Shown here: positions 111 through 23,991 of the stretch, piece after piece
Numbering within the stretch: position 1 is the stretch's first letter
Layout of the letters: the number at the start of each line of letters is the position of its first letter
DNA from: a virus
IMG/VR virus record: IMGVR_UViG_3300032242_001112
Coordinates: 1 to 26,466 of that record
Direction: 5' to 3' (one strand)
Length of the DNA stretch: 26,466 nucleotides
Translations under genes and position numbers: made by a program
The notes under the pieces: model-generated
Database searches by the model: none
The model's input: only the letters and a program-made list of their open reading frames with translations
Told to the model about the DNA's origin: nothing

Positions 111-155
111 AATAAACCACACAGTTTTCGACCTGCATCGACTGTGTGGTTTATT
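111..155. terminator. Bidirectional rho-independent terminator
   Basis: AATAAACCACACAGT (111-125) pairs perfectly with 141-155 across a 15-base loop. The outer stem is A/T, so each strand ends its hairpin in a T-rich run (TTTATT on both). It sits exactly between two convergent genes: the plus-strand tail ending at 91 and the minus-strand clamp loader ending at 156, whose stop codon abuts the stem. Confidence 0.9.
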
Positions 156-3430: not shown

Positions 3431-3663
3431 TTACTTAGAATCTTTATAATTTTCTTTTGTTCTTGTTCATGTAGCCATTCCTCCTCTGGGCCAAAGGTAG
3501 GACAGCGAGCCAGTGCATCTTCAAGGATCCACTTTAATCTATATAAGTCTTGTTTGGCACCCCAAGCAGTGAATCCGTCATTACGGAAATCAGTAGCATC
3601 GTATGCAGCAGCATTAATCTCTCTCGCTGCATCGGTTATGTTATAAGAATATTTAAAGCCCAT
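3427..3663 (-). CDS. Small hypothetical protein, 78 aa, possibly leaderless
   Basis: The sequence MGFKYSYNITDAAREINAAAY...WGAKQDLYRLKWILEDAL looks like a small helical protein. No function is recognised. The start is unusual. It is the only ATG in frame, has no Shine-Dalgarno sequence, and lies in the 3' arm of an 11-bp hairpin. A predicted promoter (TTGACT, 17 nt, TAACAT with TGC extension) would start RNA at the A of this ATG. It is the first gene of the 3663-1140 operon and overlaps the nucleotidyltransferase gene by 4 nt. Confidence 0.72.
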   Translation of the reverse strand: MGFKYSYNITDAAREINAAAYDATDFRNDGFTAWGAKQDLYRLKWILEDALARCPTFGPEEEWLHEQEQKKIIKILSK

Positions 3664-22350: not shown

Positions 22351-22542
22351 TCACCAATGTCTTATTGTATTTGCGATAATAAAGAAGCAAGTAATAACAT
22401 GAATTGTAACCCAGAAGGTTTTTAAAAAAAGTGCTATTCTAGCTTCTTTTAATGTGAGAATAGGCACCTGGGGCCTATCCTCATCTGTTTGTCCCATTAG
22501 GTGCCCAGTAGCCCGGGCCCATATTTGTTCAAGTGTGTTCAC
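22351..22542 (-). CDS. Small membrane protein, 63 aa
   Basis: The N-terminal half is soluble and polar (MNTLEQIWARATGHLMGQTD). The C-terminal half, about residues 36-59, is a hydrophobic membrane segment (ALFLKTFWVTIHVITCFFII). It overlaps the end of the QueD-like gene by 4 nt (22539-22542). No function is recognised. Confidence 0.65.
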   Translation of the reverse strand: MNTLEQIWARATGHLMGQTDEDRPQVPILTLKEARIALFLKTFWVTIHVITCFFIIANTIRHW

Positions 22543-23036
22543 GCGAACAAGTCCTCATTCCATTCTCTATGACCTTCACGGTAGGCCATATTACTCTGTG
22601 TTTCTCTAACTTCTACGCGATAGCACCATAGGCGCTGTGCTTCACCTTCGCCCCACATTTCAGGAATATAAACACCATTAATATACTTGTACAGCATATC
22701 GCTAAGTCCTTCACAACCTATCCTAGGAAGTACTACAATTTTAGCCATGTTCTTTTCTTGTAGCATTTTGAATGTCTCCATATCTGGATCATCTGCGGCT
22801 ACAATAAGTGTATGATCAAATTGATCTTCAAGAATCTTTTTGAGTTCTTTTAGACCACCGTAGTCGGCGGCCCAATTGCGAACATCTAGGTCATTGGTGC
22901 CAAAGTAGAACTTCATGCTAAATGAATAGCCGTGAATTAGATTACAATGGCTGTCTGCTCTCCACTGTCTATACGCACATGGAAATGCGTCGTGGTATTC
23001 CTTAGTACTTGTGTACTTGTAGGTAATTGGTGTCAT
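22539..23036 (-). CDS. QueD / 6-pyruvoyl-tetrahydropterin synthase-like protein
   Basis: The fold signature of QueD is clear: YHDAFPCAYRQWRADSHC then NLIHGYSFSMKFYF (14-45), DYGGLKELKKILEDQFDHTL (58-77) and VEVRET near residue 144. QueD makes 6-carboxytetrahydropterin for 7-deazaguanine synthesis, used for queuosine or phage DNA modification. Two of the usual three zinc histidines look replaced: FEAAH becomes FPCAY (Y22), and HGH becomes HGY (H35, Y37). Cys31 and D74-H75 are kept. At 165 aa it is longer than E. coli QueD (120). No QueC, QueE or FolE is in the window. It starts the operon running to uvdE and has its own promoter. Confidence 0.82.
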   Translation of the reverse strand: MTPITYKYTSTKEYHDAFPCAYRQWRADSHCNLIHGYSFSMKFYFGTNDLDVRNWAADYGGLKELKKILEDQFDHTLIVAADDPDMETFKMLQEKNMAKIVVLPRIGCEGLSDMLYKYINGVYIPEMWGEGEAQRLWCYRVEVRETQSNMAYREGHREWNEDLFA

Positions 23037-23047
23037 GCTGTTTTTCT

Positions 23048-23086
23048 CCTATGTTAATTATAGCATAGGCTTGCAGAATTTGTAAA
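23048..23086 (-). promoter_or_regulatory. Promoter of the QueD operon with -10 in a hairpin loop
   Basis: TTTACA (23081-23086) is 18 nt from a perfect extended -10, TGC-TATAAT (23057-23065). CCTATG/CATAGG (23048-23053 and 23064-23069) flank the -10, and the arm nearer the gene contains part of the AGGAG ribosome site (23046-23050). The predicted start near 23050 excludes the 5' arm. Confidence 0.65.
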
Positions 23087-23118
23087 GCGGGATGAATGCA
23101 CTAAAGGCCGCTGTAGTG

Positions 23119-23289
23119 TTATTTAAGGTTTTTAATTTCGTGTTGAACAATTTTTAGTTCGTCCTGGAGATGTACAATCATTTCTATTTCTTTTTTTCTA
23201 TCAAAATATAGTTTGCCAAATGTAAATGCAAATAATGTCCAGCCTATGAATCCACCTATGAATAATACTGTTAATAATTTTTCTTCCAT
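23119..23289 (-). CDS. Small membrane protein with basic coiled tail, 56 aa
   Basis: Beginning MEEKLLTVLFIGGFIGWTLF, the protein has one membrane segment (about 5-25) followed by a charged helical tail (DRKKEIEMIVHLQDELKIVQ) likely to form a coiled coil. The frame is also open from an ATG at 23301, but that codon lies inside a hairpin arm. The ATG at 23289 has GGGAG 6 nt upstream. The topology is holin- or spanin-like only in a loose sense; no function is proven. It follows clpP. Confidence 0.65.
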   Translation of the reverse strand: MEEKLLTVLFIGGFIGWTLFAFTFGKLYFDRKKEIEMIVHLQDELKIVQHEIKNLK

Positions 23290-23294
23290 AATTT

Positions 23295-23332
23295 CTCCCA
23301 TAAGTGTAAGTATTTAGACTAACTTATGGGAG
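23295..23332 (-). promoter_or_regulatory. Hairpin hiding a ribosome site, late-type promoter in its loop
   Basis: CTCCCATAAGT (23295-23305) pairs perfectly with ACTTATGGGAG (23322-23332) around a 16-base loop. The GGGAG Shine-Dalgarno of the 56-aa gene is in the 3' arm. The loop carries TCTAAATA (minus strand, 23311-23318), one base off the T4 late consensus. A start about 6 nt downstream, near 23305, would remove the 5' arm. Confidence 0.75.
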
Positions 23333-23339
23333 GATTTAG

Positions 23340-23933
23340 TTAAGAGTTAATGCGTTTCTCAATTATCTTATCACATAACCCATAAGCTAGTGCTTCTTCA
23401 GCACTCATAAATGTATCACGATCCATATCGCGTTCAAACTCAGCATAAGTCTTTCCAGCAGTATTGTGGTCAACATACAGCTTAGTCAACATATCCTTCA
23501 TTTTGGTGATCTCTTGATATTGAATAGCAATGTCACTTTGCATACCACGGGCCCCGCCACTGGGTTGATGAATCATATGTCGTGCATATGGCAACATATA
23601 ACGCTTACCTGGATGTCCTGCTTGTGCTAGGAAACTACCCATACTACACGCTTGTCCAATAACATAGGTACATACATCGGGTTTAACAAACTGCATAACA
23701 TCATAAATGCCCATGCCGCTAGTAATTACACCCCCAGGACTATTGATATAAAAGTGAATATCCTTTTCACTATCGGCGCTTTCCAAATGTAGCAACTGTG
23801 CAATGACAAGGCTAGCACTGGCATCATCAACTGGTCCATTTAGGAACACAATGCGCTCATTAAGCAAGCGACTAAAAATATCAAAGGCTCGTTCGCCTTG
23901 ACCGGTCTTTTCGACCACCATTGGTACTAACAT
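23340..23933 (-). CDS. clpP: ClpP-family serine protease
   Basis: The 197-aa protein should assemble into the double-ring ClpP chamber and degrade proteins fed by a Clp ATPase. Its catalytic triad is complete: S97 in GQACSMGS, H122 in HMIHQPSGG and D173 in [12 protein letters not shown]. The INSPGG (63-68) strand and the conserved end YGLCDKII are typical. It has no long propeptide; it begins [20 protein letters not shown] like host ClpP. AAGGA is 6 nt before the ATG. It has its own promoter. In phages, ClpP may serve as a prohead-type protease or degrade host factors, which the sequence does not settle. Confidence 0.94.
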
Positions 23934-23954: not shown

Positions 23955-23991
23955 ATTGTAACAGAAAGGCAAGTATTGTCAAGTACTTGCC
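23955..23991 (-). promoter_or_regulatory. clpP promoter nested in a terminator-like hairpin
   Basis: TTGACA (23977-23982) is 16 nt from TACAAT (23955-23960) with TGT extension. The -35 is in the 8-base loop of an 8-bp inverted repeat, GGCAAGTA/TACTTGCC (23968-23975 and 23984-23991). On the minus strand the stem is followed by TTTCTGTT, so it may also end upstream transcripts. Confidence 0.7.

Follow-up and report, generated by a model that had tools for sequence, protein, structure and literature searches.

The window analysed here, a 26,466-base IMG/VR virus contig that is itself a fragment, carries towards one end a series of minus-strand genes in the order AAA ATPase, two small secreted or membrane proteins, clpP, a 56-aa gene, a QueD-like gene and NAD-epimerase. 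The clpP open reading frame (23340..23933, minus strand) belongs to the head-maturation-protease/ClpP family (Pfam CLP_protease, 3.8e-75; phrog_94, 2.3e-47), and PHROG and Pfam annotation of the window genes places the QueD-like product in the 6-pyruvoyl-tetrahydropterin synthase type. Between them, the 56-aa gene (23119..23289, minus strand) encodes a protein with one likely transmembrane segment and a C-terminal coiled-coil-like tail (MEEKLLTVLFIGGFIGWTLFAFTFGKLYFDRKKEIEMIVHLQDELKIVQHEIKNLK), both judged by eye from the sequence. Neither PHROG (at E<=0.001) nor Pfam (above its cut-off) gave a match for this protein. A tblastn search of 50,697 phage records was likewise negative, and cultured relatives are absent from that collection.

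The gap between clpP and the 56-aa gene is occupied by a hairpin. Read 5' to 3' on the minus strand, the clpP stop codon TAA (23342-23340) is followed by CTAAATC, CTCCCATAAGT, the loop TAGTCTAAATACTTAC, ACTTATGGGAG, AAATT and the ATG at 23289, with 7 nt between the stop codon and the 5' arm. The original prediction described a perfect 11-bp stem with GGGAG in its 3' arm and a late-promoter-like box in its loop, and inspection of the sequence finds these elements exactly as claimed. The 5' arm CTCCCATAAGT (23322..23332) pairs perfectly over 11 bp with the 3' arm ACTTATGGGAG (23295..23305), which holds both the Shine-Dalgarno (SD) sequence GGGAG (23299-23295) and a second in-frame ATG at 23301; the intervening loop (23306..23321) is 16 nt long. 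This is the longest close inverted repeat of the 26-kb window. The stable fold anticipated for the surrounding stretch was also recovered (-23 kcal/mol with the plus strand folded, against -10.6 +/- 2.6 for shuffled sequences; z -4.85, 0/200), and the stem-loop on the minus strand has a computed energy of -17.5 kcal/mol. In folds computed with 180 nt of context, GGGAG pairs with the 5' arm at a probability of 0.99 in read-through RNA. No intrinsic terminator or terminator-like T run was found at the hairpin on either strand. An Rfam search returned no family at gathering score, its weak matches to eukaryotic miRNA and snoRNA being judged chance. A pairing of the clpP 3' end (23391-23379) with the 5' arm was considered as a possible switch and rejected: at -19.5 kcal/mol it is strong in the window and unconserved among relatives (2/35 at p<0.05).

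The loop holds the late-promoter-like box TCTAAATA (23311..23318, minus strand), with the core TAAATA at 23316-23311. By itself the octamer is ordinary, with 7 copies of TNTAAATA in the window where 12 would be expected, and the box stands above chance because its place is conserved in relatives. Because a T4 late promoter places its box roughly one helical turn ahead of the start (PMC2988020), the +1 of the late RNA is predicted at 23305 (minus strand), the sixth base past the box. T4 geometry thus gives the same position near which a late start had been proposed. This +1 is also the first base of the 3' arm, so that the predicted late RNA would be unable to form the stem; the computed probability that the SD is unpaired rises from about 0 in read-through RNA to 0.77 in the predicted late RNA.

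We propose that RNA entering through clpP would contain both arms, form the 11-bp hairpin and bury the SD, and that the small membrane protein would not be made early as a result. Once late transcription begins, a gp55-type sigma factor would recognise TCTAAATA in the loop and start RNA at about 23305; this RNA, without the 5' arm, would carry a free GGGAG in an unstructured leader of 16 nt and would be translated. From this arrangement we infer a late start at 23305, read-through early in infection, repression of the gene in that RNA, and use of gp55 by the window's phage. Probably only late-started RNA can make the small membrane protein, which would render it strictly late, as originally suggested. 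A sigma70-like site before clpP (TTGACA-16-TACAAT; 23955..23982, minus strand), identified by consensus match only, is a possible source of early read-through RNA in the window: it matches the consensus at 11 of 12 positions, has TG ahead of the second hexamer and reaches p=0.02 when the 110 nt upstream are shuffled. Such a site is rare among relatives (2/29 at p<=0.05, namely the window and L054), and as a general origin of early RNA it was rejected as good in the window but not conserved.

A ClpP search yielded 80 IMG/VR loci, and counts were made on distinct sequences. Where a small membrane gene follows clpP, the two are separated by a hairpin that has TAAATA in its loop and the SD in its 3' arm. 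TAAATA lies at the corresponding place in 35 of the 38 distinct clpP-adjacent loci with a small membrane gene; in the other three (L066, L070 and L080) the membrane gene follows clpP without it, and among the 35, two loci (L025 and L031) show scarcely any hairpin or none. Most other loci resemble the window in that computed folds free the SD in the predicted late RNA. Directly before TAAATA, the 35 clpP-adjacent hairpins have G in 20 cases, T in 14 and C in one (the window, at 23317). This base is never A, which is among the commonest bases at this position at other sites of the same phages and is also the T4 consensus; the hairpin box may therefore be weak or of a variant class.

The membrane protein occurs in two forms, one with a single transmembrane helix and a helical tail and the other a two-transmembrane version of about 104 aa. 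A second set of loci, chosen by the two-transmembrane form and not by clpP or TAAATA, comprised 49 distinct starts, 23 of them with TAAATA 18-45 nt upstream; most of these 23 have a significant hairpin, in some cases with wholly different stems. Many distant two-transmembrane homologues are without the hairpin-promoter unit. For the single-transmembrane family, a profile of the closer subset gave 12 loci only, the whole-family profile being too divergent for scanning. At L065 (about 3599-3653), and also at L153, the start codon is itself part of the 3' arm and is not preceded by an SD, and the predicted late RNA would be almost leaderless.

Across about 50 distinct IMG/VR sequences the loop TAAATA is constant and the arms change together. 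Among 52 distinct sequences, pairing between an arm and its own partner averages -13.9 kcal/mol, against -9.5 with the 3' arm of a random relative (z -12.4; 0/20,000 permutations reach the observed sum), and the 35 clpP-adjacent loci give z -9.9 against permuted arms. These permutations are uncorrected for shared ancestry, and thinned sets therefore matter; the 21 least-alike sequences still give z -9.0 (0/20,000). Fully replaced stems continue to pair, as in L142 (GTCCTGACTTT/AAAGTCAGGAT) and L152 (AAATTGACCTGATAT/ATATCAGGTCAATTT). A column test on a MAFFT alignment gave a covariation score of 0.258 compared with 0.208 when shuffled (0/500), with pairing at 69% as aligned and no higher than 54% when slid. 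Folding is stronger for the sense than for the antisense strand (Wilcoxon p 0.004), and the stems contain 30 G-U pairs compared with 15 A-C mismatches (p 0.036, with cells that are not independent), both of which indicate a constraint on the RNA of the sense strand.

TAAATA is about tenfold enriched upstream of genes in relatives; the window copy of the 8-bp box is TCTAAATA in place of TATAAATA. In two long relatives, G010 and G011 (206 and 131 kb), it lies within 70 nt upstream of 48 genes versus 4.3 expected and of 30 versus 3.8, respectively, the expectation coming from TAAATA density and the gene calls being rough. The corresponding controls were 4 and 4 downstream and 19 and 9 antisense, the antisense counts including a contribution from divergent promoters. 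Genes preceded by TAAATA include those for tail sheath, tail fibre, virion proteins and a holin-like protein. In the window it precedes three tail-fibre-like genes, a 125-aa plus-strand gene and the 56-aa gene; the 2583-aa window gene (14559-6808) is called fibre-like from repeats only. A different gene in G010 matches a holin family and also has TAAATA, so the 56-aa protein need not be the holin.

A gp55 homologue (phrog_234, E 1e-25 to 1e-28) is present in G010, G011, G016 and G023, and a profile of the phrog_234 matches adds homologues in G038 and G042; gp55 and the hairpin share a contig in G010, G011, G016 and G038. No gp55 was found in the window's 26-kb fragment or in most relatives' contigs, all of which may be fragments. 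When genes preceded by TAAATA were scanned for pairing between the SD and a 5' arm, the membrane gene ranked strongest in six of the seven relative contigs scanned and second in the seventh (G003). As a positive control, the same scan of T4 recovered gene e, read as AATACCTTCTA, TAAATA and CTTAGGAGGTATTATG, and I-TevII among the best sites.

Related hairpins occur before fibre-like genes. In G010 (about 38665, L087) and G011 (about 87387, L101), a TAAATA hairpin precedes fibre-like genes of 2009 and 1786 aa; the start codon is paired within the outer stem of this hairpin (CCATTGA with TCAATG). In L035, L051, L064 and L074, a longer hairpin with CTAAATAGTAG on its 5' side lies directly after clpP. 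Its outer stem takes in the SD that immediately precedes the start codon of a fibre-like gene about 300 aa long; in L051 and L074 this hairpin is the fibre-like gene's own.

An arrangement of this kind could also reflect translational coupling, in which the hairpin silences the gene unless a ribosome ending at the clpP stop codon opens the lower stem, and the membrane protein would then be made whenever clpP is translated. With the stop codon 7 nt from the 5' arm in the window, a ribosome that terminates there would extend to the foot of the stem, and the distance from the start of the stop codon to TAAATA is usually 33-34 nt in relatives. However, this distance varies, reaching 80 nt in L005, and the membrane gene of L051 and L074 has its usual hairpin even though the fibre-like gene, about 300 aa long, lies between it and clpP. 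The unit therefore belongs to the membrane gene and not to clpP, which argues against coupling as its main purpose, and coupling would leave the conserved loop TAAATA unexplained. We regard coupling as unlikely. Hairpins between genes are often processing or stability elements, and the structure could accordingly be an RNase III-type site or the 3' end of the clpP mRNA, with TAAATA as an RNA loop motif. The missing T run speaks against such a role, and a loop motif would not explain why TAAATA is also enriched before genes that have no such hairpin; we give this explanation very little weight.

The inverted repeat might instead act in DNA, as an operator to which a dimeric protein binds around the promoter, with the RNA hairpin incidental. 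Operators commonly take the form of an inverted repeat with a promoter box at its centre, and an operator over a T4 late promoter is known from I-TevI autorepression (PMC2988022). Yet the stem sequences change wholly between phages while pairing is kept, the G-U excess and the better sense-strand fold point to RNA, and the SD sits in the 3' arm at a working distance from the ATG. An operator thus appears highly improbable.

We consider it very likely that the small membrane gene is controlled by a timing device with two layers, like that of T4 gene e. Covariation of the arms at the RNA level around an invariant loop TAAATA supports the proposed hidden SD and late promoter, and the late-promoter part of that reading draws further support from the enrichment of TAAATA before late-type genes, the presence of gp55 in hairpin-bearing relatives and the recovery of T4 gene e. 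The device would then extend from a handful of T4 genes to an evolved, portable unit under RNA-level selection, across a broad set of uncultured phages whose sigma and replication genes are of T4 type, and would single out the small membrane protein as the gene these phages most need silent before the late phase. More speculatively, and with considerable doubt, the unit may mark a conserved, apparently undescribed membrane/coiled-coil family whose early expression is harmful, together with a distinct late-promoter subclass ([A/T][G/T]TAAATA) unlike the TATAAATA type of structural genes. If true, such a family could be, for example, a lysis-timing or membrane-remodelling protein.

Two further elements were observed in the window. 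The leader upstream of queD (22539-23036, minus strand) spans 23037-23115 on the minus strand, is conserved in about 30 relatives and overlaps a TTTACA-18-TATAAT site in the window. It consists of an AGCGG-loop-CCCGC stem, an A-rich linker (UAUACAAA) and a UUCUGC tail. Covariation is seen in the stem (AGUGG/CCCAC, ACCGG/CCCGG, AGAGG/CCCUC; z -8.0) and base pairing between loop and tail (GGCAU with UGCC, GACAU with AUGUC; z -3.8), giving an H-type pseudoknot that resembles the preQ1-I riboswitch. The leader has no Rfam match and is a candidate for a new class of preQ1/preQ0 riboswitch. Just after the clamp-loader gene, a perfect 15-bp inverted repeat with a 15-nt loop (window 111-155; AATAAACCACACAGT / ACTGTGTGGTTTATT) is perhaps a terminator.

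The mechanism proposed here is already documented for T4 genes; what is new is the gene, the phage group and the breadth of covariation. In T4 e, soc, 49 and I-TevI, read-through RNA conceals the SD or AUG, which becomes accessible through late promoters located within or next to the 5' arm, and read-through RNA of gene e, which encodes lysozyme, is repressed about 100-fold (PMC3014915). The original prediction's appeal to e, soc and 49 as users of the same logic agrees with this literature. A similar arrangement sequestering the ribosome-binding site (RBS) is described for Aeh1 mobE, I-TevII, I-TevIII and segB (PMC2988022). Judged from sequence alone, the features of gene e-type cases are found here: a stable hairpin pairs the SD in computed folds of read-through RNA, the late box is sited such that the RNA from its predicted +1 is without the 5' arm, and permutation and column tests find the structure kept by compensating change. 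T4 gene e has the same layout, with a late box in the loop (TATAAATA in T4), the SD in the 3' arm and a late RNA that omits the 5' arm, whereas it encodes lysozyme and not a small membrane/coil protein, and TAAATA lies 19 nt from the ATG compared with 27 nt in the window. The box also differs, being NNTAAATA here, with G, T or C and never A before TAAATA. In Aeh1 late promoters a/gC replaces TA at -13/-12 (PMC2988020); like these, the window's TCTAAATA keeps the core TAAATA and changes the first two positions, while the relatives, unlike Aeh1, mostly have AG or AT there. T4 soc, 49, I-TevI, I-TevII and segB and Aeh1 mobE share the RBS-sequestering hairpin from which a late promoter removes the 5' arm. 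These T4 and Aeh1 cases are single genes, several of them homing endonucleases, whereas here about 50 distinct stems accompany the same kind of gene.
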